From Rhizobiales bacterium Ga0077548 (GTDB taxonomy: Bacteria > Pseudomonadota > Alphaproteobacteria > Rhizobiales > Xanthobacteraceae), in the NCBI GenBank assembly GCA_001464215.1, contig LNEZ01000056.1, positions 1-64,000 on the forward strand: DNA of 64,000 nucleotides, written 5' to 3'. Positions 34,870-51,346 of the stretch are shown here, piece by piece. Numbering within the stretch: position 1 is the first letter of the stretch; the number at the start of each line of letters is the position of its first letter. The notes below the pieces were generated by a model. That model saw nothing but the letters and a program-made list of their open reading frames with translations. It searched no databases and was not told the origin of the DNA. The translations under genes and the position numbers were made by a program.

Positions 34870-37800
34870 ATGAGTTCGTTTCCGGCCCTCGCTGAATTGC
34901 TTTCCGAGCCGAGGTTGGCTGCGCTGATCCTCGATCCCGCGCCCGTGCTCGTGTTCGACCGCGACGGCCGCTTGCGTTTCGCAAACCGCGCGGCAGTTTC
35001 AGCCTATGGCGCGGCTTCGCTCGCCGAACTGATCGAAAAAAGCGGCGCGCTGTTCGGCGAAATACCGGAGACCGCCAAAGAATTTTCGGAGACGCTGCCG
35101 CTGAACGGCCCTTACCGGCGCGAAGCGATCGCACTCACGAAAAACACCGAGACGTTCCGCTGCGAGCGGATCGGACTTGCAAACGGATCGAGCGCGGTCC
35201 TGTTCACGGGGCTCGCGCGTGAGCGCTCCGACGGAAACTTAAGCAAGGCATTCAGCGCGCTGATCGACGGCGAGCGAGCTCCCTTCGCGCTGTTCGACCA
35301 CGAAGGCAAGCCGCTGCACGCAAACCGCATGGCGACGGCGATCATGGGCCCTGCAGGTACGCTCCTGCATCTGCACGCCTCCGCTGCCGCGGCACTCTCG
35401 GACGCAAATCTCAAAGGTTTCGGCGAGATCCCGTTCGGGGTTCTGAAAATTTTTCTGAAGAAATTCTCGCTTGGACCTCACAGCCTCCTGCTCGCCTCTT
35501 TCACGCAGCCGGAGCGCGCGCCTGCGCCCGAACCGGAAGCGAAACCCGCGCCGCTGACGTCCGAAGAAAAACCGAAAGCAGAAGTGACGAAGGCCGAACT
35601 TCCTCAAGTCATCCAGCTCGGGCCACCGACGAACGATAATATCGGCTGGGAAGTGCCGAAGGCGAAGCCAGTTTCAGATAGCGAAGTCACGACGGAAGAA
35701 GTGAAAGAATTCTGGGCGGAGCTGGAAGAAGGCGAAGAACCGCAATCCGTCAGCACGGAAGTCGAAAGCGAAAATCCCGCGCCTAACGCTGGTGACGTCA
35801 GCCCTGAAGAAGTGAAAGAATTTTGGGCCGAGGCAGATGGCAACGAAGCCCCGATAAATAGCATCGCGCCGCCAGCCGAGCCCGAAGCGCCGAAACCGAT
35901 CGCTCCACAAAAGCGCGCACCCTCACGCTTTGTGTGGCAGCTCGATCAGGACGGTAAATTCACCAGCGTTTCGCCCGATCTTGCAGAAGCCGTGGGCGAC
36001 ACGAACACCGCGCGCGTCGGCGAAGACTGGCCCGCGCTTGCCGCCCGCGCGGGAATTGCAAATACCGATGCGCTGTTTGCGGCAGTCAAGCGCCGCGACA
36101 CCTGGTCAGGCGTGTCCGTGCTCTGGCCGGTCGCAGAGACGGATACTGCACGGCCGGTCGATCTTGCAGCGCTTCCCGTGTTCGACCGCGAACGCAATTT
36201 CCTCGGCTATCGCGGCTTCGGCGTATTCCGCGAAGCCATTCCGTTCATCGCGAAGACAAAGCCGGCACCGGTCGAAACGCCACAATCTGAGCCGAGCGAA
36301 GAAACCGCAGCCAATGACGAGTTTCCGCTCTCGCACGAGCCGGTCGTGGAACCTTTGCCGGAGGCGCCGAAAGACGAACCGCCTGCGCTCGATGTGCAGG
36401 ATCACGTGATCCGCGTGCGCCCGCCCGATAGCGAGAACCGCTCCACGCTGAGCCCGAAAGAACAAACCGCCTTCCGCGAAATCGGCCGCGTACTCACGCG
36501 CGAAACGCTGGACAGCGAACGCGCGCGCGTGACCCGCGATCTCGATGAGGCTTTGGGTATTCGCGGCCAACAACAGCGCGACGAGCCCGGCCCGAAGACC
36601 CACGACATTCCGAAGCACGATATCGTCTCACCCATCGTTCGCCGTCCAGACGAGCCGGCGCCGATCGTTGCTCCCGCGCTGGATTTGTCCGGCGTCAGCG
36701 AACGCGCGCTGATGGATCGTCTGCCACTCGGCATCGCTGTGCATCGCGACGACAAGGTGCTTTACGCGAACCGCGCAATTCTTGATTGGGTCGGTCTCGA
36801 TAATCTTGAAACGCTGGAGAAGAACGGCGGGCTGTCGCGCATTTTCTCCGGTGCGACCGCGCAAGCCGAAGACGCTGATCCCACGATCCCGCGTACGCTT
36901 GCGGTCCAGGGCCCGAGCGGCGAGCCGATCCCGGTCGAGACCCGACTCTTCTCGACCCCGTGGTACGGTGGCTCAGCACTGGTCTATGTGCTTCGCCGCG
37001 CCAATGCCGGATTCGACGAGCGGCGCGAAACGGTCGAACGCGCGTTGCGTTCGGCGGAAGCCGCGACCCGCGAGCAGCAGGCGATCCTCGACACCGCGAC
37101 CGATGGCGTGCTCATCATCGACCGTGACGGCAAGATCACCGGCATGAACAAATCCGCGGAAGCGCTGTTCGGCTTCGACTTCGCGGAAATACAGAACTCC
37201 TCTTTCACCATGCTGTTCGCACCGGAAAGCCATCGCGCAGCGGTAGATTATCTCGACAAGCTCGCCTCCAACGGCGTCGCCAGCATCCTGAACGACGGCC
37301 GCGAAGTGGTGGGCCGCGAGCGCAACGGCGGGCTCATTCCGCTGTTCATGAATCTCGGCAAGGTCGGGGAGAACAACGAAAAATTCTGCGCCGTGCTTCG
37401 CGACATCACGCAATGGAAGCGCGCGGAAGAAGAACTCACCGGTGCGCGCCGCCAGGCCGAGCAGGCAAGCTCGCACAAATCCGACTTCCTCGCGAAGATC
37501 AGCCACGAGATGCGCACGCCCCTGAACGCGATCATCGGATTTGCGGAAGTCATGATGGAGGAGCGCTTCGGCCCGATCGGCTCGGAGCGCTACCGCGAAT
37601 ATCTCAAGGACATTCACCACTCCGGCGGGCATCTGGTCTCGCTCATCAACGATCTCCTCGATCTCTCGAAGATCGAGGCGGGCAAGCTGGAACTGAATTT
37701 TGCAAGCGTCGATCTCAACGATATTGCCAAGCAGTGTATGTCGATCATGCAGCCGCAGGCGAACCGCGAACGCATCATCATCCGCAGCGCGCTTGCCGAG

Positions 37801-38175
37801 CATCTGCCGCCTGTGGTCGCGGACCAGCGCTCGATCCGGCAGATCGTGCTGAACCTGCTTTCGAACTCCGTGAAATTCACGAAGCCCGGCGGCCAGGTTA
37901 TTCTTTCCACGTCGCTAACCGACAAAGGCGAAGTCGTGTTGCGCGTACGCGATACCGGCGTCGGCATGACGGAAGAAGAAGTTTCGGCGGCACTCGAGCC
38001 GTTTCGCCAGCTTGCAACTTCGGGCCGTGACCGCAGAGAAGGCACCGGCCTCGGGCTTCCGCTCACGAAGGCGCTGGTCGAAGCGAACCGCGCCAGCTTT
38101 CAAATCAAGAGCACGGTGAACGCGGGCACGCTGATCGAAGTTGCGTTTCCCTCGACGCGGGTGCTTGCGGGGTAG
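34870..38175 (+). CDS. Soluble PAS-domain sensor histidine kinase, PdhS/CbrA-like
   Basis: 1101 residues with no membrane segment or signal peptide. PAS-like modules lie at about 20-90, 375-460, 615-705 and 740-850 (ATDGVLIIDRDGKITGMNKS). The C-terminal kinase has H-box KISHEMRTPLNAIIGF with His879, then N-box NLLSNSVKFT near 995, DTGVGM and GTGLGLPL. The kinase core strongly resembles the PdhS/CbrA/PleC group that controls the cell-cycle regulator DivK in Rhizobiales. The long acidic linker (residues 215-360) holds EEVKEFWAE twice, 37 residues apart. No partner response regulator is adjacent. Confidence 0.86.
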   Translation: MSSFPALAELLSEPRLAALILDPAPVLVFDRDGRLRFANRAAVSAYGAASLAELIEKSGALFGEIPETAKEFSETLPLNGPYRREAIALTKNTETFRCERIGLANGSSAVLFTGLARERSDGNLSKAFSALIDGERAPFALFDHEGKPLHANRMATAIMGPAGTLLHLHASAAAALSDANLKGFGEIPFGVLKIFLKKFSLGPHSLLLASFTQPERAPAPEPEAKPAPLTSEEKPKAEVTKAELPQVIQLGPPTNDNIGWEVPKAKPVSDSEVTTEEVKEFWAELEEGEEPQSVSTEVESENPAPNAGDVSPEEVKEFWAEADGNEAPINSIAPPAEPEAPKPIAPQKRAPSRFVWQLDQDGKFTSVSPDLAEAVGDTNTARVGEDWPALAARAGIANTDALFAAVKRRDTWSGVSVLWPVAETDTARPVDLAALPVFDRERNFLGYRGFGVFREAIPFIAKTKPAPVETPQSEPSEETAANDEFPLSHEPVVEPLPEAPKDEPPALDVQDHVIRVRPPDSENRSTLSPKEQTAFREIGRVLTRETLDSERARVTRDLDEALGIRGQQQRDEPGPKTHDIPKHDIVSPIVRRPDEPAPIVAPALDLSGVSERALMDRLPLGIAVHRDDKVLYANRAILDWVGLDNLETLEKNGGLSRIFSGATAQAEDADPTIPRTLAVQGPSGEPIPVETRLFSTPWYGGSALVYVLRRANAGFDERRETVERALRSAEAATREQQAILDTATDGVLIIDRDGKITGMNKSAEALFGFDFAEIQNSSFTMLFAPESHRAAVDYLDKLASNGVASILNDGREVVGRERNGGLIPLFMNLGKVGENNEKFCAVLRDITQWKRAEEELTGARRQAEQASSHKSDFLAKISHEMRTPLNAIIGFAEVMMEERFGPIGSERYREYLKDIHHSGGHLVSLINDLLDLSKIEAGKLELNFASVDLNDIAKQCMSIMQPQANRERIIIRSALAEHLPPVVADQRSIRQIVLNLLSNSVKFTKPGGQVILSTSLTDKGEVVLRVRDTGVGMTEEEVSAALEPFRQLATSGRDRREGTGLGLPLTKALVEANRASFQIKSTVNAGTLIEVAFPSTRVLAG

Positions 38176-38214: not shown

Positions 38215-40005
38215 TCACCGGACTTCGCAAACCTGGCGATGCGGTTGTTCGCCCTTATTGAAGTCGCCCCAACGGCAAACCAGCTTGCCTTTCGGCGGCG
38301 CATCGTTGCGCACGACCGGCGGACGCGGCTGCGGGTTTATGCAAGCGCCATTCGGGGCCGCCACGAGCCCGGGAGCGCAAACAAGCGGACACACACGTGA
38401 GGCCTTTGCCTGCACCGCATCGAGCGCGGCGGCGCTTGGCGCGCCGACATCGAACTTCGTCGCGGCATATTGATTGAACGCGGTCAGCGCCTTGCGGGAC
38501 TCATCGTTCCATGAAGCATCGGAGGCGATGATGCCGCATCCGACACGGCGCAATTCGACATTCAGTTTCACTGTCAGAGTATTCAAGTCCACGGCGGCAA
38601 GCCGCTGGATCTGCGCGCGAGCGAGCTGCGCATAAAAGCCGTCCGGGTTTTGTTTCAGAAACTGCTCGTAAACCTCCCGCGTGTCGATGCGTTGCGCCGC
38701 CTCAAAATCGCGCTGCGCGGCGGCCTGCGGAGCAAGTTTCGTTTCGCTTTTCGGCTGTGCCGCCGGCGGCTGTAATGGTGCGCGCGGCACCTCGGTTTTT
38801 GTCGCGACCTGCGACGGCGGTTGCGCGGGCTGTGCAGGTTGAGGCTGCCTCGTCAGCACCGGAGGCGGCTGCTGAACGATAACGGCCGGCCCGCGCGTTC
38901 CGAACAGATTGAGCCAATTCGCGCCGACGAAAACGAACACCAGCAAAATCGCCGCCGCGATGGCAACGGCGCCAAGCCAGCGGCGAGACGTTTTTCTTGC
39001 TGTGAAATCCGGCGCAGGCGACGGTGCGGAATACGGCAGTGGCTGGAATCGCGGCGCAGCTTCGTTGCCGGTAACTGCGACCGTCGCAGCGGTTTTCCCG
39101 CCCCACCCGATCGCGCCGCGGAACGCTTCAATCGAGGCCGTGCGATCACGCGCATTAAATGCAAGCGCACGGTCAACCGCCGCGGCGAACTCCGCGTTCA
39201 GTCGCGGCGCAAATGAACCGAGCGGCTGCAACGGGTCGCCGTTGCCAAAGGCAATTTGTTGTGTGCGCTCTTCCGCCGACACCGGAGGGCGACCGCCAAG
39301 CGCGCGGTAGATCGTGGCCGCAAGCGCATAGACATCGGCACGCGCATTGAGATGGTCGGCTTTGTCCTGGACCTGCTCGGGCGGCGAATAGAATTGCTTG
39401 GAGACGCTGAAAGAGCGGTTTGTTTTCGAGCGAAGCTGCGTCTGCTGCTCGATCATCTTGATCGCGCCGAAGTCGATGATGGTCGGCGTACCGTTTGTGC
39501 GCACCATGATGTTGTCGGGCGCAATGTCGCGATGGATCAGTTTCTGCGAATGCAGATATTCGAGCGCGCCGAAGATCGGCTCGATCATGGGGCGTAGTTC
39601 CGCGACCGATGGCGGCGCGGGCTTCTTGCGGAGCCATTCCTCGAGGGTTTCGCCCTCGACATATTCCATGATCATGTAGCCGGTGTCGTTGTCTTTCACG
39701 TAGTGAATGACATCGACGATGTTCGGGTGCTTCAGCCTGCATTGATCCGTGGTCGAGGACTCAAACCGCTTCAGCGCCCATGCCACGATGTCCGTATCGC
39801 GCGACGCGAACACGATGCGCGTGCTTTCCTCGCGCGAAGCGATGCCGCGGGGGAAAAACTCCTTGATTGCCACGTGCTTGCCGGTGACCGGGCTTGCGGC
39901 CTCATAGGTGATCCCGAAGCCGCCCGAGCCAATCACGCGCAGGATTTCGTAGCCCGCGATTTTCGAGCCAGCCTTTAGCGCATTCGGATCGTTCTGAATC
40001 GCCAT
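38215..40005 (-). CDS. Membrane Ser/Thr protein kinase with extracytoplasmic C-terminal domain (copy 1)
   Basis: 596 residues. Hanks kinase domain about 18-290: P-loop GSGGFGITY, catalytic Lys48 in VAIKEFFPRG, HRDIAPDN (158-165), DFG 178-180, SPPEQ in place of APE. A membrane helix (WLGAVAIAAAILLVFVFVG) follows at about 340-365. The outer part has a Pro/Gln linker, a helical segment (FLKQNPDGFYAQLARAQIQRL) and a domain with RRVGCGIIASDASWNDESRKALTAFN split over its length, close to the pattern of PG_binding_1 modules (GxWgxxsxxAlxxF), then Cys-rich RVCPLVCAPG. It may sense cell-wall material and signal inward (inference). Same direction as copy 2, 126 bases away. Confidence 0.88.
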   Translation of the reverse strand: MAIQNDPNALKAGSKIAGYEILRVIGSGGFGITYEAASPVTGKHVAIKEFFPRGIASREESTRIVFASRDTDIVAWALKRFESSTTDQCRLKHPNIVDVIHYVKDNDTGYMIMEYVEGETLEEWLRKKPAPPSVAELRPMIEPIFGALEYLHSQKLIHRDIAPDNIMVRTNGTPTIIDFGAIKMIEQQTQLRSKTNRSFSVSKQFYSPPEQVQDKADHLNARADVYALAATIYRALGGRPPVSAEERTQQIAFGNGDPLQPLGSFAPRLNAEFAAAVDRALAFNARDRTASIEAFRGAIGWGGKTAATVAVTGNEAAPRFQPLPYSAPSPAPDFTARKTSRRWLGAVAIAAAILLVFVFVGANWLNLFGTRGPAVIVQQPPPVLTRQPQPAQPAQPPSQVATKTEVPRAPLQPPAAQPKSETKLAPQAAAQRDFEAAQRIDTREVYEQFLKQNPDGFYAQLARAQIQRLAAVDLNTLTVKLNVELRRVGCGIIASDASWNDESRKALTAFNQYAATKFDVGAPSAAALDAVQAKASRVCPLVCAPGLVAAPNGACINPQPRPPVVRNDAPPKGKLVCRWGDFNKGEQPHRQVCEVR

Positions 40006-40078
40006 CGGACCGCACCGTATAAAGTGCCGCGAAACCTGCGGCTTATGAAGATACCTTTATTCCTGATCGCGAGGAAAG

Positions 40079-40110
40079 TCCGTGATCGCGATCACAAACC
40101 CGATCACGGA
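40079..40110. promoter_or_regulatory. Palindromes between the two kinase genes
   Basis: GTGATCGCGATCAC at 40082-40095 is a perfect 14-base palindrome. It is nested in a larger repeat: TCCGTGATCG (40079-40088) pairs with CGATCACGGA (40101-40110). It is 75 bases before the copy 1 kinase ATG and 22 bases past the copy 2 stop, so it could be an operator or an mRNA hairpin. Confidence 0.45.
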
Positions 40111-40131
40111 GTCGCGAGGGAACCTTCTCGG

Positions 40132-41676
40132 CTACTGGACGGCTGGCGTAGGCTTGGCCGTCAATTTCCCGTAACAGCTGCCGCGATCGTTCGTGCTCAC
40201 GAACTCGCCTTCGATCGCTTCCGGCGTGACTTTTCCGCTGTAGCGCATCTTGCGCGCGAACAGCCCGGTGGTTTCGCTCGCACCGCTCTGGAAATCGAAC
40301 GAGCCGTCGGTATTGACCCCGGTCACGAAAGTATTGCCGCTGTGAAGAATTTGCAGCGCCGTGCCATCGACTTCAACGCTGAATGCCGCGCGCCTGCCCG
40401 GCACGCAATTTGTCAGCGCCTGCTCCGCGCTGTTCTCCACAACGCGATAGAAGACGACTTCGCCGGTGTAGCGTTTGGCAAGCGCTGCCGTCGTATGCGG
40501 CCCAGTATCCTGCTTCGGCGCGTTGGCATCCTCTGCGGGCTTCACCTGCATCTGCGGAATTTCTTTTACGTCGTCGAGCTTCGGTGCAGGCGTCTCCACT
40601 TGCACGGCTTCGCCGCCGAATTTCGGAAGCGCGATCAAACCACTCAGATAAGCAACCCCAATGCCAAGTGCCGAAATTCCGATCAACGGCAACAGCCATG
40701 GCAAGCGCGAGCGGCGTGTCGCCTCGTCAGAATTGCGTTGGAGTGCGCGCGGCAGGGCGATCTCGGTGCGATCGTCGTCACCATTCCAGTCCAGCTCGTC
40801 GCGAAGCTCCTCAATCTGGAACTGCCGGTCTTCGGCGTTAAACGAAAGTGCGCGATCGACTGCGCTTGCGATTTCAGGGGTCAGCGCAGGCGCGACAGCG
40901 CTTAGCGGAACGTAAGAGTCCGGCTTTCCGTAAGCGAGTTTCTGCATCCGCTCTTCGGCGCTTGCCGGCGGACGTCCGGCGAATGCACGATAGAGCACGG
41001 CACCCATCGAATAGATGTCCGCGCGATGATCGAGTTCGCCGTCGGCTTCGATCTGCTCCGGCGGCGAATAAAACTGCTTCATCACCGCGAACGAGCGCGG
41101 ATTTGAACGCAGTTGCGTTTCCTGCTCAATCAGTTTGATCGCGCCAAAGTCGATGATCACCGGGCGCCCGTCGGCGCGGATCATGATGTTGTCCGGCGCG
41201 ATATCGCGATGGATCAGCCGCTGCCGGTGCAGATAGCCGAGCGCTTCGAGCACCGGCGAAAGCAGCGGCTCTAGCTCATCGGAGTTAAGCGGCGTTCCCT
41301 GTTCGCGCAGGAGATGCTCGAGGGTTTCGCCCTCGACATATTCCATGATCATGTAGCCGGTGCCGTTGTCTTTCACATAGTGAACGACATCGACGATGTT
41401 CGGGTGCGTGAGCCGGCACTGGTCGAGGGTCGAAGATTCGAAGCGCTTCAGCGCCCATTCGACGATCTCGGAATCGCGCGGCGAATAGACGATGCGCGTA
41501 TCGCCCTCGCGCGAAGCGATGCCACGCGGGAAGAATTCCTTGATCGCAACGCGCTTGCCTGTGAACGGGCTGTCGGCTTCATAGGTGATGCCGAAACCGC
41601 CCGCGCCGAGAACGCGAATGATGTGGTAGCCCGCGATCGCCGCGCCCGGCCGGAGCGCGTTCGGATCGTCTGCCAT
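40132..41676 (-). CDS. Membrane Ser/Thr protein kinase with a distinct extracytoplasmic domain (copy 2)
   Basis: 514 residues. Kinase domain with GAGGFGITY, VAIKEFFPRG, HRDIAPDN, VIIDFGAIK and YSPPEQ, very like the other two copies. A membrane helix (LPLIGISALGIGVAYLSGLI) follows near residue 330. The outer domain (about 385-514) differs from the other copies: YTGEVVFYRVVENSAEQALTN, then TDGSFDFQSGASETTGLF and YSGKVTPEAIEGEF, a beta-rich stretch I cannot assign. It lacks the VGCG/PG-binding-like module. This suggests the same signalling core reading a different outside signal. Confidence 0.87.
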   Translation of the reverse strand: MADDPNALRPGAAIAGYHIIRVLGAGGFGITYEADSPFTGKRVAIKEFFPRGIASREGDTRIVYSPRDSEIVEWALKRFESSTLDQCRLTHPNIVDVVHYVKDNGTGYMIMEYVEGETLEHLLREQGTPLNSDELEPLLSPVLEALGYLHRQRLIHRDIAPDNIMIRADGRPVIIDFGAIKLIEQETQLRSNPRSFAVMKQFYSPPEQIEADGELDHRADIYSMGAVLYRAFAGRPPASAEERMQKLAYGKPDSYVPLSAVAPALTPEIASAVDRALSFNAEDRQFQIEELRDELDWNGDDDRTEIALPRALQRNSDEATRRSRLPWLLPLIGISALGIGVAYLSGLIALPKFGGEAVQVETPAPKLDDVKEIPQMQVKPAEDANAPKQDTGPHTTAALAKRYTGEVVFYRVVENSAEQALTNCVPGRRAAFSVEVDGTALQILHSGNTFVTGVNTDGSFDFQSGASETTGLFARKMRYSGKVTPEAIEGEFVSTNDRGSCYGKLTAKPTPAVQ

Positions 41677-41772
41677 CGCTGGATAAGTCCTATTGCCCGC
41701 AGCAATCCCTAGCCTGCAACCATGGCCGGGTCGAGTGGTGGTGCAATCGCTTTTGCGTGAACGGCCCTACCT

Positions 41773-42147
41773 TTAAGGCTTCGGCCACAGCGTCTCGAAC
41801 AGTGCCGCTACCGGACGAAGCGGGATTTCCGCGCAAGGGAAAGTGCGTTTGAACGGAGTGCCGCGCAAGCCTATCTGCATTTCCGAGGCGCCCTCGTTCC
41901 AGATGAAGTCGGTGAAATCCGGCCCGATGCTCTGCACGCTGAACAGGAAAGATTTTCCGGCCGAACGCAGGATCGTGCCGGGCATCGGGTCTTCCTGTGA
42001 TGGCGACTCATAGATCGCCTTCTTTGCCTGCGTGTCGAAGGTGAACAGGAGCGGCTTGAATTCGCCGTCGTCGCAGCGAAGCGAGAACTGTTCCGCGCCG
42101 GCCGCCAGCGGAAGTATCACCAAGGTCGCGGCGACAAATACCCTCAT
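41773..42147 (-). CDS. Small exported protein, unknown function
   Basis: 124 residues with a signal peptide (MRVFVAATLVILPLAAGAEQ) and a mature part of about 105 residues with two cysteines (SLRCDDGEF and TFPCAEIPL) that could pair. FTFDTQAKKAIYES and WNEGASEMQIGLRG suggest a beta-rich lipocalin- or META-like small domain; I recognise no family. It has no clear Shine-Dalgarno. A strong hairpin lies just upstream (42160-42190). Confidence 0.65.
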   Translation of the reverse strand: MRVFVAATLVILPLAAGAEQFSLRCDDGEFKPLLFTFDTQAKKAIYESPSQEDPMPGTILRSAGKSFLFSVQSIGPDFTDFIWNEGASEMQIGLRGTPFKRTFPCAEIPLRPVAALFETLWPKP

Positions 42148-42159
42148 CCGGAAACGATA

Positions 42160-42190
42160 ACACGCCGCGCGAGGGTGCCGCGCGGCGTGT
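42160..42190. terminator. Hairpin between the aldehyde dehydrogenase and exported-protein genes
   Basis: ACACGCCGCGC and GCGCGGCGTGT form an 11-bp perfect stem with a 9-base loop. On the minus strand it is followed only by TTATCGTTTCC, a weak U-tract, so termination of the upstream dehydrogenase gene is likely but not certain. Confidence 0.45.
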
Positions 42191-42239
42191 CTGAAAAAGG
42201 TGAACGCGATGGTTAATCCCCGCGCAAAAAAATCCGGGA

Positions 42240-43673
42240 TCAGATACCGAGTTGCGTAATGAACTTCGTGTTCAGATAAGCCTCGATCGCTTCGGAACCG
42301 CCTTCGGAACCGTAGCCGGAATCCTTCACGCCGCCGAAGGGAACTTCGGGCAGCGCCAGGCCGTGGTGATTGATCGAAACCATGCCGCTCTCGAATGCGG
42401 CCCCAATGGCGGAAGCCGTTTTCGCCGAATTCGTATAGGCGTAGGCCGCAAGACCGTAGGGCAAACGATTGGCCTCTTCCACGACTGAGTCGAACGACGA
42501 AAACGACGAGATCGGCGAGAGCGGGCCGAACGGCTCCTCGTTCATGATCCGCATATCGTTATTGATGTTGGTCAGCACGGTCGGCTCGAAGAAGTTACCT
42601 TTGTTGCCGATGCGCTTGCCGCCGGTCTCTACCTTCGCACCCTTCTGCACCGCGTCGGCTACGAAAGACTCCATCGCATCGACGCGGCGGGTGTTTGCGA
42701 GCGGGCCCATGCGCGAATCCTTATCCAGACCATCGCCGACTTTCAGCTTCTTGGAAGCGGCAGTGTATTTCTCGACAAATTCGCCAAACACTTTTTCGTG
42801 CACGAGGAAGCGCGTGGGCGCTACGCAAACTTGGCCCGCGTTACGATGTTTGTTCGCGTTCAGTACCTTCACTGCGACATCGACATTCGCGTCGTCGAAC
42901 ACGATTGCCGGAGCGTGGCCGCCAAGCTCCATCGTGATGCGCTTCATGTGCAGGCCGGCGAGCGAGGCAAGCTGCTTGCCGACCGGCGTCGAGCCTGTGA
43001 ACGTGATCTTGCGGATCACCGGATGCGGAATGAGATAAGAAGAAATTTCCGCCGGGTTGCCATAGACAAGCTGCAGCACGCCCTGCGGCACACCCGCGTC
43101 GATATAGGCCTGCACGAGTGCGGCACACGAAGCCGGCGTTTCTTCCGGGCCTTTCAGGATGATTGAGCAGCCCGCGGCAATCGCTGCGGAAACCTTGCGC
43201 ACCGCCTGATTGATCGGGAAATTCCACGGCGTGAACGCCGCGACTGGACCGACCGGCTCTTTCACGACGAGCTGATAGATATTCTCGCCGCGTGCGGGAA
43301 TGACGCGGCCATACGTGCGGCGCGCTTCTTCCGCGAACCAGTCCATGATGTCGCCGGCAAGCAGCGTTTCGCCCTTGGCTTCGACGAGCGGCTTGCCCTG
43401 CTCCAGCACCATGATCTTCGCGATATCGTCGGCGCGCGAGCGGATGATGTCGGCGGCCTTGCGCAGCGTTTTGTAGCGCGTGTCGGCGGGCGTTTTCTTC
43501 CAGACCTTGAAGCCTGCATCGGCAGCGGCAAGCGCCTTGTCGAGATCGGGCTTGGTCGCGTGCGAGAGCGTCCCGATTTTCTCGCCGGTCGCGGGGTTCA
43601 GAATCGGCTCGCTTTTGCCTTCCGCGCCCTTGGTCCATTCGCCGTTGATATGCAGGGAAACGTCCGAATACAT
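42240..43673 (-). CDS. gabD: NAD(P)-dependent succinate-semialdehyde dehydrogenase
   Basis: 477 residues, the usual length. Aldehyde dehydrogenase motifs are intact: FTPWNFPINQAVRKVSAAIAAG as the cofactor site region, FTGSTPVGKQLA, catalytic Glu in MELGGHAP and catalytic Cys in GQVCVAPTRF. The sequence FAEEARRTYGRVIPA is typical of GabD-type enzymes, which oxidise succinic or glutaric semialdehyde. It is divergent from a hydratase gene; whether they share a pathway is unclear. Confidence 0.88.
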   Translation of the reverse strand: MYSDVSLHINGEWTKGAEGKSEPILNPATGEKIGTLSHATKPDLDKALAAADAGFKVWKKTPADTRYKTLRKAADIIRSRADDIAKIMVLEQGKPLVEAKGETLLAGDIMDWFAEEARRTYGRVIPARGENIYQLVVKEPVGPVAAFTPWNFPINQAVRKVSAAIAAGCSIILKGPEETPASCAALVQAYIDAGVPQGVLQLVYGNPAEISSYLIPHPVIRKITFTGSTPVGKQLASLAGLHMKRITMELGGHAPAIVFDDANVDVAVKVLNANKHRNAGQVCVAPTRFLVHEKVFGEFVEKYTAASKKLKVGDGLDKDSRMGPLANTRRVDAMESFVADAVQKGAKVETGGKRIGNKGNFFEPTVLTNINNDMRIMNEEPFGPLSPISSFSSFDSVVEEANRLPYGLAAYAYTNSAKTASAIGAAFESGMVSINHHGLALPEVPFGGVKDSGYGSEGGSEAIEAYLNTKFITQLGI

Positions 43674-43768
43674 TGTCTCTCTCGCCTGATTGTTTCTAAT
43701 TTGGCCGGGATGGGGCTACGAAAGTGCGCCCCTGTCAACACCGGCAACGCAAGGCTGATCATACCGTA

Positions 43769-44569
43769 ATGACAACATTGGATGCCACCGCTAAGGCCGC
43801 AGAAATTCTCGACGCGCTCGACCACCAGAAGCGGCTTGCCGCGTTCTCCGGGATCGAGATGCCGCTGGCTTATGCCGTGGTCGCGGAGATGCGGCGCTTG
43901 CGCACCGCGCGCGGCGAAAAGGTGCTCGGCCGCAAGATCGGCTTCACCAACCGCACGATCTGGGACGAATACAAGGTCTTCGCGCCGATCTGGGGTTATA
44001 TGTACGACACGACCCTCTTTGATGCTTCCGCTGCGCGGAATGTCGATCTGTCGAAGTTCGCAGAGCCGCGGCTGGAGCCCGAGATCGCATTCCACTTCTC
44101 GCGCGCACCGCAGGCCGGGATGTCGCCCGCACAGATTCTGGATTGCGTGGACTGGATTTCGCATGGCTTCGAGATCGTACAGTCGCATTATACGGGCTGG
44201 AAGTTCGCGGCCCCCGATACGGTCGCGAATAATGCGCTGCATGGCGCATTCTTTCTTGGCCAGAAGATTTTCGTCGTGACCAGCCGCGCGGCATGGCTCG
44301 GCCCGCTTACGAATTTCGAAATCTCGCTTTATCGAAACGGTGAGTTTATCGATAAAGGCCACGCGCGTAACGTGCTCGACGGGCCGCTGTTTGCGATCAG
44401 GCATCTGCTCGATTTATTGAAAGACGATACGCATAATCCGCCCGTTGCAGCGGGCGAAATCATCACCACCGGCACGGTAACCAAGGCTTGGCCGGTGGCG
44501 CCGGGTGAAGTCTGGCGCACGGAAGTAAGCGGATTGAAGCTGCCGGGGATTGAGATCGGGTTTCGCTAG
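43769..44569 (+). CDS. 2-keto-4-pentenoate hydratase-like protein (FAH superfamily)
   Basis: 266 residues from the ATG at 43769 (MTTLDATAKAAEILDAL). The fold is that of MhpD/HpaH-type hydratases and oxalocrotonate decarboxylases: VLGRKIGFTNRTIWDEY, PRLEPEIAFHFSRAP (with the metal-binding Glu pair), and GEIITTGTVTKAWPVAPGE near the end. These enzymes act on 2-hydroxypenta-2,4-dienoate from ring cleavage. No other aromatic-degradation gene is nearby. Its stop shares CTAG with the converging acetyltransferase gene. Confidence 0.8.
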   Translation: MTTLDATAKAAEILDALDHQKRLAAFSGIEMPLAYAVVAEMRRLRTARGEKVLGRKIGFTNRTIWDEYKVFAPIWGYMYDTTLFDASAARNVDLSKFAEPRLEPEIAFHFSRAPQAGMSPAQILDCVDWISHGFEIVQSHYTGWKFAAPDTVANNALHGAFFLGQKIFVVTSRAAWLGPLTNFEISLYRNGEFIDKGHARNVLDGPLFAIRHLLDLLKDDTHNPPVAAGEIITTGTVTKAWPVAPGEVWRTEVSGLKLPGIEIGFR

Positions 44570-45138
44570 AAGTCTTTGACCAGCAGCAAACCCGCTTCGT
44601 TCTCCGTATTCCAGTCCTCGATCACCATCTTGCGCGAGGCCCGCTGCGTGTAGCCCTGGCGCCCGTAAAGCCGCTGTGCGCCGATATTCTTGTCGGCAAC
44701 GATTAAACTCATCCCTCGCTTGCCCGTCTTGCGGCCGGTTTCTTCCGCAAGCTCGATCAGCTTCACGCCAAGGCCGCGATTGCGAAACTTCGGCTGCACC
44801 GCGAGCACATTGATGTACCAGGTGCCGGGAGCGAGATTTTCGAGTTCCTGAAACGGCACGAAGATCGGCGGCATATCCGGCGAAACCGGTTTCGGCATAT
44901 CCGGGATTTCATAACCGATCAGGCAGCCCGCACATTCGCCGTCCTGTTCGATCACGGTCGCGTTGCGATAGGAGAAAGCGCCTTCTTCCCGCGCTGCGCG
45001 GGCGCGGCCGACATCCCAAGGGTCTTCTTGCTCTTTTGCCAGTTTGGCCCAGAGATAAAGCGGCAGCCCCTCGCCTGCGTAATTCACCAATTCAGCGAGC
45101 GCGGCAGCGTCGGCTTTGGCCGCAGGACGAAACGTCAT
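44566..45138 (-). CDS. GNAT-family N-acetyltransferase
   Basis: 190 residues. The acetyl-CoA site is visible as VQPKFRNRGLGVKLIELAEE (motif A, Q/RxxGxG/A) after TWYINVLAV, and NIGAQRLYGRQGYTQRA is motif B. The target is unknown. It overlaps the ketopantoate-reductase-like gene by 4 bases (ATGA), so the two are translationally coupled, and shares 4 stop bases with the hydratase gene opposite. Confidence 0.88.
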   Translation of the reverse strand: MTFRPAAKADAAALAELVNYAGEGLPLYLWAKLAKEQEDPWDVGRARAAREEGAFSYRNATVIEQDGECAGCLIGYEIPDMPKPVSPDMPPIFVPFQELENLAPGTWYINVLAVQPKFRNRGLGVKLIELAEETGRKTGKRGMSLIVADKNIGAQRLYGRQGYTQRASRKMVIEDWNTENEAGLLLVKDF

Positions 45139-46142
45139 TTGCCGATCAAGGCTCCGATCTCTTCGCGCGACGGAAATTGCCCGGTCTTCTCGATCCGTTT
45201 GATCGCGTCCACAATCGCGCGGTTGACCGGCGTCGGAAAATTGATCTTCTCGCCGAGCCGGACGAATTCGCCGTTCAGGTAATCGATTTCGGTCGGCTGC
45301 TTGCGCAAGATGCTTTGCAGCGTCGAGGTCACAGTCGTGCCCTCCTCACCCCGGCCTAGATTTTTCCTCAGGACATACTTCCCGACAAAATCCGGCAGCC
45401 TGAGCAGATTCGAGAAAAATTTCATCGGCGCGCCGGGCATATCAATCAAGGGAATACCGGCTGCGCGAACCACCCCGAACGACTCTTTCAACTGCGCAAC
45501 GCCGAGCGCTAGAACCACCGGATCAGCCGCGCATTCCTTGAGCGACTTTCCGGTCAAGGCTTGCAGGCTGTTGGCGAGCGCATTGACGACGAGTTTCGAC
45601 CACACCGCGCCTTCGATCTTATGTGAGACGAAAATCGGCGTAACAAGCTCGAACAGTGCGATCGTGTCCTCCAGTGCCGAGCGCTTGTCCTTCGTCACCG
45701 CGCCGAGCACGGTGAATCCCTGGCGGTTATATTGAACCGTGCCAGGCTCGAGCGATGAAGAGTTCAGCATCAAGGTTGCGGTAATCGGCTCGACGCCGTG
45801 CTCTGCCAGCACGATTTCCCCCGCGCGCACGCCGTTTTGCGTCGTGACAATCGTCGCATTGCCGAGCGATGGCTTCAGCACTCGCAAGGCTTCGGCGAGA
45901 TCCTGCGTCTTCATCGTGAAGACCGCGAGGTCGGTGCCCGGCGGAATTTCGGACGCGACCTTCGGCGAAGCGTGAAACTCGCCGGCGATCCCGCTGACCT
46001 GCAACCCGGACGCGCGCAACGCTTCCACGCGCGACGGGCGCACGACCATGGTTACGTCTTCCTCTCCCCGCGTCCAAAACGCGCCAAGGAGATTGCCGAT
46101 CGCGCCTGCGCCGACCACGGCGATTTTAATATTCAGCGGCAT
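45135..46142 (-). CDS. 2-dehydropantoate 2-reductase family protein (ApbA/PanE)
   Basis: 335 residues. N-terminal Rossmann motif VVGAGAIGNLLGAF, then FTMKTQDLAEAL and VTTQNGVRAGEI, the family's conserved loops, and C-terminal domain with the catalytic Lys region GAVWSKLVVNALANSLQALTG. PanE makes pantoate for coenzyme A with NADPH; several paralogues of unknown substrate exist in these bacteria, so I do not assign panE. First gene of a two-gene unit with the acetyltransferase. Confidence 0.85.
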   Translation of the reverse strand: MPLNIKIAVVGAGAIGNLLGAFWTRGEEDVTMVVRPSRVEALRASGLQVSGIAGEFHASPKVASEIPPGTDLAVFTMKTQDLAEALRVLKPSLGNATIVTTQNGVRAGEIVLAEHGVEPITATLMLNSSSLEPGTVQYNRQGFTVLGAVTKDKRSALEDTIALFELVTPIFVSHKIEGAVWSKLVVNALANSLQALTGKSLKECAADPVVLALGVAQLKESFGVVRAAGIPLIDMPGAPMKFFSNLLRLPDFVGKYVLRKNLGRGEEGTTVTSTLQSILRKQPTEIDYLNGEFVRLGEKINFPTPVNRAIVDAIKRIEKTGQFPSREEIGALIGK

Positions 46143-46199
46143 GGCTAAAAATACAAAGCGCCGCAGAGAACCCGCGACGTACGTTCGGGCGGGTAGTTA

Positions 46200-46976
46200 C
46201 TAGAATAGCGAGCGCGATGCTATTCCCAAAAAGAACTGTCCGAGCGTCTGCTGTTGCGGGACTGCTTCGGCGGCCTTCGCGGGCTGCGGCTGCGGGCAGA
46301 CTCGGTCGGTTTTGTCCTTCACCGCCTTGAGCGCATTCGCATTCGGGGATTTGACGTCGAATTTCGTCTGCGCCTGGCGATTGAAGGAGGCAAGCGCCTG
46401 CTGCGAGGCATTGGTCCAGTCCGTATTACCGGCTGGCCCACAACCCACGCGCTTCAATTCCGCATTCAACCGCCTGACGATGCCGGGAAGTTCGAACTCG
46501 ACGAGCTGCTTGCGCTGCGCGCGCGCGAGATCGGCATGAAAGCCCTCGGGATGACGTCCGAGAAACAGGTCGATTGCCTCAGTATTACCGGTTGCGAGCG
46601 CGAGCATATAATCGTAGCGCGCCTCAGCTTCGGGATCCGTGATCGCAGCGCCGGCAACCGCGGGCACCTCGGTGCGAACGGGCTGAACCGCCGGAAGAAC
46701 CTGCTCGGTCGCAGCGACTGCAGCAGCCACCGGATAAATTTCAGCGCGTGAGCGAAAAGAGCTCGACGATGCGATCAGGGAAAGTATCGCGGCAATCGCA
46801 GCCAGAATGGCGAGGGCAAAAAGCCAACGCGGGGCGGCGCGCTCGGTCACAACGACCGGCTGCACATCGGTTGGAGCCGATTGCAGCAGACTTTGTTTGG
46901 ATCGTTTCGCCGTAGTTTTTGCCGGCCGCTTTTTCAGCTTTGCCGGCTGCGAGACCTTCTTCGCATTCGCACGCAT
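46200..46976 (-). CDS. Membrane-anchored protein with the kinase-type outer domain but no kinase
   Basis: 258 residues: a short basic cytoplasmic N-terminus (KKRPAKTTAKRSKQS), a membrane helix at about 52-68 (LFALAILAAIAAILSLIA), then an outer part. That outer part repeats the layout seen in kinase copies 1 and 3: FLGRHPEGFHADLARAQRKQL, then ELKRVGCGPAGNTDWTNASQ, ALASFNRQAQTKFD and DRVCPQPQP. So it is a paralogue of the receptor part without an enzyme. It might compete for or present the same ligand (inference). Confidence 0.78.
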   Translation of the reverse strand: MRANAKKVSQPAKLKKRPAKTTAKRSKQSLLQSAPTDVQPVVVTERAAPRWLFALAILAAIAAILSLIASSSSFRSRAEIYPVAAAVAATEQVLPAVQPVRTEVPAVAGAAITDPEAEARYDYMLALATGNTEAIDLFLGRHPEGFHADLARAQRKQLVEFELPGIVRRLNAELKRVGCGPAGNTDWTNASQQALASFNRQAQTKFDVKSPNANALKAVKDKTDRVCPQPQPAKAAEAVPQQQTLGQFFLGIASRSLF

Positions 46977-47302
46977 ACCGCACCTACCCCACCCAACTTA
47001 TCGGTCGCTCCTAACCTGCTCAATCCCGGAACGAGTGTAGCGCTTACGAGGCGAGAGTCATGTTGCGGACAATGCTTGCGCGAAATTTAGCCTGTGCCTG
47101 TGGACGCTTCTGAATCTCGTTGCCGATTCAAACACTTCGCCTATCAGAAATAGAACGCTGGCCGCGGCCGCGAGCCTGCACACGCTAAGGATAAACCGGC
47201 GGCACGCTTGACGGGCATACCAACGGCTGCCAAAAAATTACCAAGCAAGTTCAATAGCTTAGAGAAGTTCTAATCTATGAGAAACTTGCCTGGGATACGT
47301 TC
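46977..47302. other. Intergenic region before bfd
   Basis: 326 bases between the kinase-less protein and bfd. The only structure I can support is the Irr-box-like palindrome at 47259-47273. Two short frames in it are poor candidates for genes. Confidence 0.5.
47259..47273. promoter_or_regulatory. Irr-box-like palindrome upstream of bfd
   Basis: TTAGAGAAGTTCTAA, with outer halves TTAGA and TCTAA, lies 30 bases before the bfd start. It resembles the iron control element bound by Irr in Rhizobiales (TTAGAA/TTCTAA half-sites). Confidence 0.6.
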
Positions 47303-47599
47303 GTGATCGTCTGCTCCTGCAACTGTCTGACCGAAGCGCAAATCCGCGAGTCCTGCGCGCGAGGCGAAGGCGCACCGCGTTCAACCTTCGAGGTTTACAA
47401 GTGCCTCGGCTGCAGCCCGAAATGCGGCACCTGCGCCCGCACGATCCGCTCGATCATGGACGAGGTGATCGGCCGCGACGCTTGCGGCGTATGCCCCGTG
47501 GCCGCAGGCAGCGCCTGTGGGGCGGCCAATATTGCCGATGCGCTGAATGCAGCCATTGAACCGCTCCCGGCCGGGACGGCGCTCGTCGCAGCCGAATAA
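47303..47599 (+). CDS. bfd: Bacterioferritin-associated ferredoxin with a Cys-containing C-terminal extension
   Basis: 98 residues, starting with GTG at 47303. The Bfd [2Fe-2S] cysteines are present: Cys4 and Cys6 in MIVCSCN, Cys41 and Cys44 in CGTC. Two further cysteines (34, 37) and a C-terminal extension with Cys61, Cys64 and Cys72 (CGVCPVAAGSAC) exceed the usual about 64-residue Bfd. Bfd supplies electrons to reduce and release iron from bacterioferritin, encoded 103 bases downstream. Confidence 0.88.
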   Translation: MIVCSCNCLTEAQIRESCARGEGAPRSTFEVYKCLGCSPKCGTCARTIRSIMDEVIGRDACGVCPVAAGSACGAANIADALNAAIEPLPAGTALVAAE

Positions 47600-47649
47600 G
47601 CTTTATTTTTCAACTGCTTCGGAACTACCGGGAACCGATTGCGTTCTCC

Positions 47650-47664
47650 TTAGAACTATTCTAA
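47650..47664. promoter_or_regulatory. Irr-box palindrome upstream of bfr
   Basis: TTAGAA-CTA-TTCTAA is a perfect 6-bp dyad matching the iron control element half-sites. It lies 38 bases before the bfr ATG, so an iron-responsive Irr could control bfr separately from bfd. Confidence 0.72.
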
Positions 47665-47702
47665 TTTAACTCCATCACCTGTTTATTGAAGGAGCGGCCG
47701 CC

Positions 47703-48182
47703 ATGAAAGGCGATCCCAAAGTCATCGAATATCTCAACAAGGGGCTTCGCTCGGAACTGACCGCGATCAACCAGTACTGGATTCACTACCGGTTGCTCGA
47801 CGACTGGGGCTACCTCGACCTCGCGAAGAAGTGGCGCGCGGAAGCGATCGAGGAAATGCAGCACGCGGACAAGTTCACCACCCGCATCATCTTTCTCGAG
47901 GGCCTGCCGAATATGCAGACGCTGGACCCGATCCGCATCGGCCAGAACGTCAAGGAAGTGCTCGACGCCGACCTCAAGGCCGAGTACGGCGCCCGCGCGC
48001 TTTATCAGGAAGCCGCGATCTACTGCCGCGATGTGAAGGATCTTCCCTCGATGAATCTCTTCGAGCAGCTAATGACCGACGAAGAAGGCCACATCGACTT
48101 TCTGGAGACGCAGCTCGATCTGGTCGAGAAGCTCGGCCTCGAGCTTTACTCGCAGCACCACATTGGGAAGTTGGAGGACTAA
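47703..48182 (+). CDS. bfr: Bacterioferritin
   Basis: 159 residues, the usual length. Ferroxidase ligands are in place: Glu18, Glu51, His54, Glu94, Glu127 and His130, and the haem-binding Met52 (EMQHAD). The start follows GAAGGAGCGG. It stores iron in a 24-subunit cage with haem at subunit interfaces. It lies 103 bases after bfd with its own iron box between, and its transcript ends at the terminator 59 bases downstream. Confidence 0.97.
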
Positions 48183-48240
48183 GGCTCGCCTCAGTCCTTT
48201 TGGAAGGCTGAATGACTGATTTCTCAGTCGCCTAAAATAA

Positions 48241-48269
48241 AAAGGGCCGAAGGATTGCTTCGGCCCTTT
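48241..48269. terminator. Bidirectional intrinsic terminator between bfr and kinase copy 3
   Basis: Perfect 12-bp stem AAAGGGCCGAAG / CTTCGGCCCTTT with a 5-base loop. The minus strand continues TTTTATTTTAGG, a good U-tract for the kinase gene; the plus strand has a shorter one. Confidence 0.88.
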
Positions 48270-48290
48270 GTCGTTTCAGATGACGCGAGT

Positions 48291-50081
48291 TTAGTTGCCG
48301 ACGCAGATGCCGCGCACGCAGATCGTACCGCGCGGCTGGAACGCTGGCTGTTGCGGCTGCTGCTGATACTGCGGCTGCTGTTGCGGACGCTGCTGCACCT
48401 GCTGCGGGATGGCAACACAGGTATTGTTCTGCACCCGGAAGCCTGGACGGCAGGTCAGCGGACAAACGCGCGCATCGCGCTCTTTTAATGCGCCAAGCAA
48501 CTCGCCGTTCGGATTGGAGTCGAATTTCGTCTTCGCGTGTTTGTTGTAAAGCTCGAGCGATTTGCGCGCGGTGTCGTTCCATTCGCCGTCGTTCTGGTCG
48601 GGGCCGCAGCCGACGCGTTGCAGCTCAGCGATGACGTTACGCGTCAATTCCTTCTGCACGCGAATCTGTTCCTGTTCCGCGCGTTGCTGTTCGATCATCG
48701 CAATCTTGGTCTTTTGCGCGCGCGCGAGCGTCGCGTAGAAGCCGTCCTGATGGCGCGACAGGAAGAGGTCATAGGCCTCCATGGTGTCCACCTTCTGCGC
48801 GAGCTCGAAATCGCGGCGCGCTTCAGCCTGCGGATCGACCGGCGGCGGCTGCATCAGCGGCGGCGTTTCCACGCGCGGCTGCTGAACCTGCGTTTTCGGC
48901 TGCTCGACGACGGCCACCTGTTGCTGGTTTGGCACCTCGGTCTTTGCAGATTGCTGCGGTGTCACGACCGCAAGCTGCGGATCGCCGCCCCGGAACGACA
49001 TCATCGCAAACGCTGAGCCGACGACGAGAACCACGAGTGCTGCGGCAATCGCGGCCCACCGCTTGCCCATGGAACGCTTGCCGCTCGCGACCTTCGCGGA
49101 AGACGGCGAAATATAAGACGGGTTCGGTGGCGTGCTCGACACGCTGCGAACCGGCTTGGTCGGCGCGCTCGAGCTCGACATACCCTGCCAGCCGATCGCT
49201 TCGCGCAGTTCCTCGATCGAGCCCTGCCGTTCGCTCGCGCGGAACGCGAGCGCCTTCTCGATCGCTTTTGCGATGGCTTCCGGCACATGGGGCGCCGCTT
49301 CCGAAAGCGGTGTCAGCGAATCGCCTTCGCCGAAGGCGATCTTGCGCGCACGCTCTTCAGTGTCAGCCGGCGGTTTGCCGGCGAGCGCGCGATAGAATAC
49401 GGCGCCGAGCGCGTAGATGTCGGCGCGTGCATCCAGCGTTTCGCCTTCGCGGGTCTGCTCCGGCGGCGAATAATGCTGCTTGCCGACCATGAAGGAATGC
49501 ACGGTCTTTGCCTGCAGGAGCGTGCGGTTCTCGATAATTTTGATCGCGCCGAAGTCGATGATCACAGGACGGCCGTCCGAGGTGATCATGATGTTGTCAG
49601 GCGCAATATCGCGATGGATGAAATTCATCGAGTGCAGGTAATCGAGCGCGTCGATTACCGGCTCCAGCATTGGGCGAATTTCATCGACGGTCGGAAGGTT
49701 CGGCCGGTCACGAAGCCACTGTTCGAAGGTTTTGCCTTCGACATAGTCCATGAACATATAGCCGGTGTCGTTGTCCGCGAGATAGTGAAACACCTCGACG
49801 ATGTTCGGGTGTTTCAGGCGGCATTGCTCGGTGGTGGAGGACTCAAACCGCTTCAGCGCCCAGCTCACGAGCTCGGTGTCGCGCTCGGCATAGATAATTT
49901 CGGTGGCACCTTTGCGGGACGCGATCCCGCGCGGGAAAAATTCCTTGATCGCAACGCGACGGCCCGTGACCGGGCTCTCGCCCTCATAGGTGATGCCGAA
50001 GCCGCCCGCGCCGAGGACGCGGACGATGCGATAACCGGCGATTACTGTGCCGGCCTGTAGCGCGTGCGGATCGTTATTCAT
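48291..50081 (-). CDS. Membrane Ser/Thr protein kinase with extracytoplasmic C-terminal domain (copy 3)
   Basis: 596 residues from the ATG at 50079-50081 (MNNDPHALQAG), which aligns with the N-termini of the other copies; a longer in-frame start at 50132 adds 17 residues. Kinase motifs: GAGGFGITY, VAIKEFFPRG, HRDIAPDN, VIIDFGAIK, YSPPEQ. A membrane helix (WAAIAAALVVLVVGSAFAM) is near 345-365. The outer part has FLSRHQDGFYATLARAQKTK, a charged helix, then VGCGPDQNDGEWND, SLELYNKHAKTKFD and RVCPLTCRPG, and ends in a Gln-rich run closing with CVRGICVGN. Closest in layout to copy 1. Confidence 0.88.
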   Translation of the reverse strand: MNNDPHALQAGTVIAGYRIVRVLGAGGFGITYEGESPVTGRRVAIKEFFPRGIASRKGATEIIYAERDTELVSWALKRFESSTTEQCRLKHPNIVEVFHYLADNDTGYMFMDYVEGKTFEQWLRDRPNLPTVDEIRPMLEPVIDALDYLHSMNFIHRDIAPDNIMITSDGRPVIIDFGAIKIIENRTLLQAKTVHSFMVGKQHYSPPEQTREGETLDARADIYALGAVFYRALAGKPPADTEERARKIAFGEGDSLTPLSEAAPHVPEAIAKAIEKALAFRASERQGSIEELREAIGWQGMSSSSAPTKPVRSVSSTPPNPSYISPSSAKVASGKRSMGKRWAAIAAALVVLVVGSAFAMMSFRGGDPQLAVVTPQQSAKTEVPNQQQVAVVEQPKTQVQQPRVETPPLMQPPPVDPQAEARRDFELAQKVDTMEAYDLFLSRHQDGFYATLARAQKTKIAMIEQQRAEQEQIRVQKELTRNVIAELQRVGCGPDQNDGEWNDTARKSLELYNKHAKTKFDSNPNGELLGALKERDARVCPLTCRPGFRVQNNTCVAIPQQVQQRPQQQPQYQQQPQQPAFQPRGTICVRGICVGN

Positions 50082-50306: not shown

Positions 50307-51335
50307 ATGAACCGTCTGCTACCCAGCCTCACGTTCGTCGCAGCAGTTGCCGCGAGCACAATCGCGCCCCTGCCTGCCCAAGCGCAGGGCGAGGTAAACG
50401 TCTATACGACCCGCGAACCGAAACTCATTCAGCCGCTGTTCGATCTCTTCACCAAGAACACCGGCATCAAGGTCAACGCGATTTTCGTCGAGAAGGGTAT
50501 GGCCGAGCGTGTCGCCGCCGAAGGCGCGAACTCCCCTGCCGACATCATGATGGCAGTCGACATCGGTAACGTTCTCGACGGCGTCTCGCGCGGCGTGACG
50601 CAAGGCGTGCAGTCGGAAGCCCTCGCCTCAGCGATCCCGGCTAATCTTCGCGACAAAGACGGGCACTGGTTCGCGCTTTCGCTGCGTGCGCGTCTCTTCT
50701 ACGTTTCCAACGAGCGCGTGAAGGATAAAGCGCTCACTTACACGGACCTTGCCGATCCGAAGTGGAAGGGCAAAATCTGCATCCGCTCCGGCCAACATCC
50801 TTACAACACCGCGCTTATTGCAGCGTATATCCATCACTACGGTACGGCGAAAGCCGAAGAGTGGCTCAAGGGCGTGAAAGCCAATCTCGCGCGCAAGCCT
50901 GCCGGCGGCGACCGCGAAGTCGCGCGCGACATTCTCGGCGGCATCTGCGACGTCGGTGTCGCCAACTCTTACTATGTCGGCCTGATGCGCGGCGGCAGCA
51001 ACGAAGACCAGAAAAAGTGGGGTGCTGCGATCAATACGATCATGCCGACCTTTCCCGGCGGCGGCACGCATATAAACATCTCCGGAGCCTCGGTCGCTAA
51101 AAACTCGCCGAACAAAACGAACGCGATCAAGCTGCTCGAATTCCTTGTCTCGAACGAGGCGCAGGCAGCGTATGCCAAGGTAAACTACGAATATCCGGTG
51201 CGCCCGGGCGCGTTAATCGATCCGATCATCGCTTTCCTCGGCACACTGAAGACCGACCAGATCGATCTGACGGTGATCGTGAAGAATCGTAAGCAAGCAG
51301 CCGAACTGGCCGATAAAGTTGGCTTCGACCAATAA
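50307..51335 (+). CDS. Fe3+ ABC transporter substrate-binding protein (FbpA/AfuA-like)
   Basis: 342 residues with a Sec signal peptide (MNRLLPSLTFVAAVAAS... ending PAQAQ). Mature part starts EVNVYTTREPKLIQPLFDLF as in FbpA; the iron-binding Tyr pair region is VANSYYVGLM, and NYEYPVRPGALID is at the C-terminal lobe. It binds ferric iron in the periplasm. Twelve bases separate it from the permease gene. The iron box upstream supports an iron role over other members of this family, which also bind thiamine or phosphonate. Confidence 0.88.
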   Translation: MNRLLPSLTFVAAVAASTIAPLPAQAQGEVNVYTTREPKLIQPLFDLFTKNTGIKVNAIFVEKGMAERVAAEGANSPADIMMAVDIGNVLDGVSRGVTQGVQSEALASAIPANLRDKDGHWFALSLRARLFYVSNERVKDKALTYTDLADPKWKGKICIRSGQHPYNTALIAAYIHHYGTAKAEEWLKGVKANLARKPAGGDREVARDILGGICDVGVANSYYVGLMRGGSNEDQKKWGAAINTIMPTFPGGGTHINISGASVAKNSPNKTNAIKLLEFLVSNEAQAAYAKVNYEYPVRPGALIDPIIAFLGTLKTDQIDLTVIVKNRKQAAELADKVGFDQ

Positions 51336-51346
51336 GCCGGCCTCAC

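Follow-up and report, generated by a model that had tools for sequence, protein, structure and literature searches.

The 64,000-nucleotide stretch analyzed here (the window, from contig 56, LNEZ01000056.1, of Rhizobiales bacterium Ga0077548) encodes three membrane Hanks-type Ser/Thr kinases (K1, K2, and K3) and one enzyme-less membrane protein (E). Sequence comparison revealed that K1, K3, and E share an outer module of two parts, D1 followed by D2, and that caspase-family proteins of the order commonly end in the same module, a point missed by the first-pass annotation of this DNA. The core of D2 is predicted to be a PG_binding_1-like three-helix domain. The source genome (2.6 Mb in 109 contigs, 90.7% complete) was considered together with a genus sample of 8 genomes, a family sample of 149 genomes, and an order survey of 297 genomes, its own included.

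Translation recovered all four genes where the first-pass annotation had placed them and supplied the strand, which it had left unstated: K1 (38215..40005), K2 (40132..41676), E (46200..46976), and K3 (48291..50081) are all encoded on the minus strand. K1 (596 amino acids; Pfam Pkinase, 8e-38) comprises a kinase domain at residues 19 to 252, a hydrophobic segment at about residues 344 to 362, a P/Q-rich linker, and the module from residue 429, while K3 (596 amino acids; Pkinase, 2e-36) has its hydrophobic segment at about residues 343 to 361 and its module from residue 419. Protein E (258 amino acids), defined by translation, hydropathy, and the module, has a basic N-terminus, one hydrophobic segment, and the module from residue 117. 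The module is absent from K2 (514 amino acids; Pkinase, 7e-38). D1 is a helical-looking segment that ends in FLxxxxxGFxAxLARAQ, and D2 is a domain running from about ELxRVGC to RVCP, which aligned to 38326..38589 in K1 (including a cysteine tail), 46257..46493 in E, and 48396..48659 in K3, all on the minus strand. After D2, K1 and K3 carry an extra cysteine stretch, PLxCxPGx7-8C, and E is without it.

The outer layout that had been proposed as common to K1, K3, and E was borne out by pairwise identities of 42 to 45% over the module and by BLAST E-values of 5e-37 (K1 and K3), 4e-30 (K1 and E), and 4e-30 (K3 and E). The wording of its motifs held in outline and not in every letter, as K3 reads FLSRHQDGF, in which the expected proline is absent, and E has W-T-N instead of W-N. 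Moreover, a control profile built from 28 D2 homologues, with the genus kinases left out, recognized K3, K1, and E with E-values of 4e-26, 1e-24, and 3e-20, respectively, and a reduced version of 19 rows, from which same-family rows had been removed, still did so at 8e-23, 4e-21, and 5e-18, whereas 2000 shuffles of window proteins gave nothing better than 0.45. The homologues had first been gathered with a K1, K3, and E profile, so that their choice is not independent, but the shuffled proteins are a fair control for these scores. On this evidence, the common module of K1, K3, and E is far beyond chance. A search of the whole genome, as the first-pass annotation had suggested, returned the copies in K1, K3, and E and no fourth at an E-value of up to 10.

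The D2 stretch of K3 was modeled by AlphaFold from 45 aligned D2 sequences as three helices and a hairpin (predicted local distance difference test score [pLDDT], 90.5; predicted template modeling score, 0.75). The top Foldseek match was SltB3 of Pseudomonas aeruginosa (E-value, 0.16; probability, 1.00). A second aligner gave Z scores of 8.9 (60 residues) and 8.4 for SltB3, 7.7 (63 residues) for SleB, 7.2, 6.4, and 5.7 for L,D-transpeptidases, 6.7 for phiKZ gp144, and 6.1 and 5.8 for AmpDh2. Nine of the 15 listed structural neighbors were peptidoglycan enzymes, judged by title or common knowledge, with SltB3 and SleB first, and in most neighbors the matched stretch is what we take to be their PG-binding domain. 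A PDB sequence-profile search gave one weak match, again to SleB (E-value, 1.2). Pfam scans of the 45 D2 rows at E-values of up to 10 assigned PG_binding_1 to 25 rows (best, 4.7e-7) and PG_binding_2 to 17; at up to 0.001, PG_binding_1 was found in 9 of 29 full module proteins from outside the genus. One caspase-family protein (L032) exceeded the Pfam cut-offs of both families, with 26.2 versus 23 bits for PG_binding_1 and 27.1 versus 21.1 bits for PG_binding_2.

Several results weigh against reading D2 as a peptidoglycan binder. The Foldseek E-values were weak, none of the matches reaching 0.001 or below; CtpB, an unrelated protein, scored a Z of 6.6, with MMP-2 and MMP-9 lower in the same list; and, by the aligner's warning, Z scores below about 13, as all of these are, may reflect shape alone for small helical folds. 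In addition, D2 of K1, K3, and E matched neither PG_binding_1 nor PG_binding_2 at E-values of up to 10, and none of the 16 full genus proteins matched PG_binding_1 at 0.001. Since D2 in the window and in the genus thus lies outside the PG_binding_1 profile, its glycan-binding surface may have been lost. The theme of the structural list and the sequence evidence from homologues nevertheless speak for true kinship between D2 and PG_binding_1, and by sequence the D2 copies of the window are drifted PG_binding_1 relatives outside the Pfam family. The earlier likening of the VGCG-W-AL-F pattern to PG_binding_1 is therefore backed by the predicted fold and by the PG_binding_1 and PG_binding_2 matches of homologues, and structure prediction did not return a fold unrelated to PG-binding modules.

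At E-values of up to 0.001, the module was detected, whole or in part, in 86 of the 297 order genomes. Its partner enzymes were counted in the 29 best-scoring genomes outside the genus, one locus per genome (L014-L042; not a random draw), where Pfam assigned Peptidase_C14 to 24 of the 29 module proteins and Pkinase to one; the remaining four were two proteins without an enzyme (L029 and L040) and two interrupted by contig starts (L021 and L036). D1, besides D2, was also present in same-family caspase proteins, and the N-termini of many D2-tailed caspase-family proteins read like signal peptides. Judged by these matches, the caspase-family proteins of the order and K1, K3, and E share one tail. 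Peptidase_C14 (PF00656) itself had no match in K1, K2, E, or K3 or in their own genome, at its 90.7% completeness. The two enzyme-less D2 proteins, from other families (L029, 1198-2109; L040, 1060-2208), read as small membrane proteins with an E-like layout. The single kinase (L038, 1378-2697), a kinase plus D2 from another family of the order, sits on a very long branch and is possibly an independent kinase-module pairing; because of it, the pairing with kinases is not strictly confined to one genus.

Within the genus, the module occurred in all 8 genomes, at 16 places, and on kinases wherever the enzyme was readable. Pkinase was found in 13 of the 16 full frames, the others being E, a contig-end fragment (L046), and a G298 copy whose kinase is divided over two frames. 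In L057 (9029-10920), from a genus genome assembled as a single contig, the kinase domain of a K1-like copy is split in two frames, with the membrane and module part open. Only one of the 8 genus genomes yielded caspases, and the contig that carries them lacks the module. A K3 orthologue or fragment was present in all 8 (in G303, the copy is cut by a contig end and has no kinase part), and K3 orthologues kept the module throughout; erosion of the outer domain with kinases remaining, which would have spoken against the proposal of the first-pass annotation, did not occur. Across the 149 family genomes, matches at least 47% identical to K3 came from the genus only, and the best elsewhere reached at most 36%. 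Moreover, 23 K3-like kinase loci of other family genera (L069-L091) showed no module in their available DNA, some of them being cut by contig ends. Among the genomes searched, this kinase family is thus peculiar to the genus, and it bears a module that is otherwise mostly carried by caspases.

In the D2 tree, the genus kinase copies grouped with same-family caspase copies (support, 95/96), apart from the other caspase copies. The tree has few columns and is unrooted, which counts against the receptor model set out below; its finer branching order is not firm, and the direction of module transfer, kinase from caspase or the reverse, cannot be read from it. The genus kinase modules, together with E, did not form one clade on the best tree, which has two changes, and a single clade was not rejected (approximately unbiased test, P = 0.388).

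Protein E was absent between K3 and PanE in five genus loci with an unbroken interval (L057, L058, L059, L060, and L010). The idea that E is unique to its own genome was dropped after its end appeared at the edge of a contig from a closely related genome (L009), the first 100 bases of which hold a partly conserved counterpart of the end of E, with 6 synonymous and 2 amino acid changes over the 26 codons compared; the two diverge in their final residues, and the L009 frame ends some seven codons sooner. On the strength of this short L009 fragment, E appears to be a genuine gene of more recent origin, confined to a sub-lineage. Because the nearest neighbor of its D2 in the tree is a K1-like copy of G298 (support, 92/83; 60% identity), a descent of E from a K1-like kinase via loss of the kinase part is suggested.

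By the Pkinase profile, whose Pfam cut-off all three pass, and by their catalytic motifs (P-loop, VAIK, HRDxxPxN, DFG, PPE, and RADxY, intact in each), K1, K2, and K3 are active-looking Hanks-type Ser/Thr kinases, with 62 to 66% identity among their kinase domains. Hydropathy revealed a single strong hydrophobic segment in each of the four proteins, located after the kinase domain in K1, K2, and K3 and after the basic N-terminus in E, a pattern that fits a cytoplasmic kinase with a periplasmic tail. Whole-protein Pfam and NCBIfam scans of K1, K2, E, and K3 yielded nothing convincing beyond the kinase domain, and the module, unlike the kinase, was detectable only via homologues. The defence kinase family MAD6 of NCBIfam was rejected, as its scores of 115 to 140 bits were far too low for a cut-off of 460.

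The evidence for what the module kinases are is good, and that for what they sense is circumstantial. The simplest model is a receptor for wall contact or wall damage, in which the kinase would lie in the cytoplasm and a flexible P/Q-rich linker would carry D1 and D2 beyond the inner membrane. There, D2 would most likely touch peptidoglycan or a cell wall fragment, and its clustering or release would alter kinase activity; a PP2C phosphatase would reverse the phosphorylation, and FHA proteins may read it. Protein E, an anchor plus D2 without a kinase, could draw the ligand away from K1 or K3 or partner with either of them. We give roughly even chances to the whole of this reading, namely, that K1 and K3 are Hanks kinases that cross the membrane once and hold a peptidoglycan-sensing D2 in the periplasm, with PP2C and FHA proteins reversing and reading their output and E acting as competitor or partner. 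The statement that no PP2C is nearby held for the neighborhood; elsewhere in the genome, a PP2C-type phosphatase gene and two neighboring FHA-like genes lie on contig 12 (L043, 799-3278), one of the two FHA matches being below the Pfam cut-off. This set, whose PP2C recurs in all 8 genus genomes, may serve to read and erase Ser/Thr phosphorylation in this genome; its position far from the kinases, on another contig, is a further point against the model.

The best-surviving alternative, which we nonetheless consider unlikely, is that D2 is a mere anchor or address tag that parks the kinase in the peptidoglycan mesh, with the signal coming from the membrane state, from cytoplasmic partners, or from the D1 helices. 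The occurrence of one tail on caspases, kinases, and enzyme-less proteins is what a generic localization tag would give, and the long flexible linkers, as far as sequence tells, would make a poor rod for a conformational signal. However, D1 and D2 are retained together with kinases in the genus, and closely related kinase domains bear several different ectodomains, a pattern to be expected were the signal set by the ectodomain. The conserved cysteines bear on a second alternative, according to which D2 no longer binds glycan and instead serves to bind proteins or to report the redox state of the periplasm, with E as a heterodimer partner. Two cysteine columns were invariant in all 45 D2 rows of the alignment, the window copies have drifted from the PG_binding_1 profile, and the listed neighbors with this fold include MMP-2 and MMP-9, the pro-domains of which are not known to bind peptidoglycan. 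Structural disulfides would explain the conserved cysteines equally well, though, and many homologues across the order retain the PG_binding_1 signature, which leaves this second alternative rather improbable in our judgment.

The ectodomain of K2 (40135..40488, minus strand) differs from those of K1 and K3 and was predicted by AlphaFold as an eight-stranded, all-beta domain resembling the NHBA/fHbp/TbpB barrel (pLDDT, 83.9 on 5 rows). The model had a Z score of 10.5 to 5o1r and Foldseek E-values no better than 0.06. This domain was found in one of the 297 order genomes, its own, and additionally at genus loci L009, L011, L058, and L059. A relationship to the beta tail of the module caspases L033-L035 is not claimed (profile comparison probability, 21; E-value, 0.001; one of 297 order genomes). 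Because K2 shares the kinase and has another ectodomain, the kinase paralogues probably read different cues. The five Pkinase matches of the genome were K1, K2, K3, and two on contig 48, where a tandem pair of the same IKEFFP type (L003 and L005), with ectodomains that read as TPR-like, is preceded by a gene read as a DegP-like protease.

Where contigs allow, the genus keeps one gene order: K3, PanE, aldehyde dehydrogenase, K2 and/or K1, and then the gene of a large PAS histidine kinase. K1 is absent next to K2 in L011/L060, and G298 has two copies of it. The histidine kinase gene (34870-38175) adjoins K1 and stays next to the kinases in L057, L058, and L059. K3 is flanked on one side by two genes, one ferritin-like and the other short and Bfd-like (47303-48182), and on the other side by a divergent FbpAB-like importer (50307-53026) 225 bases away, a solute-binding protein plus permease pair; the names Fbp and Bfd are our presumptive ones. 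That the cluster senses iron or another nutrient instead of the wall is very unlikely: K3 is divergent from the FbpAB-like pair and adjoins the ferritin-like and Bfd-like genes, the importer side of K3 is kept in the genus, and the K2 barrel would suit such a role, but the aldehyde dehydrogenase, PanE-like reductase, and acetyltransferase neighbors have no iron link, and the barrel is a widespread shape with poor Foldseek E-values.

Returning to a peptidoglycan-type D2, we tentatively raise a wider idea, possible though less than probable, that an envelope sensor module has been re-wired, being read by a caspase-type protease across much of the order and by transmembrane kinases in the genus, with the enzyme-less proteins E, L029, and L040 tuning it. 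This idea draws on the rarity of caspases in the genus (one of 8 genomes) as against its kinase-borne module. The same outer module on two enzymes suggests a common envelope signal and offers a lead on what bacterial caspase-family proteins, whose function is mostly open, answer to. In Gram-positive bacteria, the PASTA kinases are established examples of membrane kinases that sense the wall; to our knowledge, the case for Gram-negative wall sensing by Hanks kinases is far less clear, and K1 and K3 would provide a compact candidate with a definable ligand domain. Among the literature matches listed for Gram-negative kinases with PG-binding outer domains and for the present pairing, no title or abstract opening in the open literature described this module on a kinase.

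Compared with known systems, K1 and K3 resemble the PASTA kinases (PrkC, PknB, and StkP) in combining a cytoplasmic Hanks kinase, one membrane span, and a cell wall-type ectodomain, and NCBIfam PknB_PASTA_kin matched their kinase part. The likeness drawn earlier to PASTA kinases stands as an analogy, the nearest one to a working system, and fails as membership, since the ectodomain is PG_binding_1-like, the Pfam scan of K1, K2, E, and K3 detected no PASTA repeats, and the PknB_PASTA_kin scores of 145 to 176 bits are far under the cut-off of 450. With the caspase-family proteins of the order (Peptidase_C14, metacaspase/orthocaspase), they share the D2 tail, and D1 too in same-family members, whereas the enzyme they carry is a kinase that would lie in the cytoplasm. 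Among prokaryotic metacaspases, 1.6% (11) were reported to bear a putative PG-binding domain (PMC3501461). A striking parallel is YARHG, a different small extracellular domain, described as four helices and proposed to bind peptidoglycan, which occurs both on kinases that span the membrane and on a caspase secreted by Bradyrhizobium (PMC3355149). YARHG (PF13308) was not among the Pfam matches of K1, K2, E, and K3 at E-values of up to 5. Finally, D2 resembles the PG_binding_1 domains of SltB3, SleB, and L,D-transpeptidases in its predicted fold and in the sequence signature of its homologues, and it differs from them in that the window copies lie outside the Pfam profile and K1 and K3 add a cysteine stretch. 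If the re-wiring is true, this module would be a Gram-negative counterpart of PASTA-kinase wall sensing, with the caspase as a candidate death or damage enzyme.

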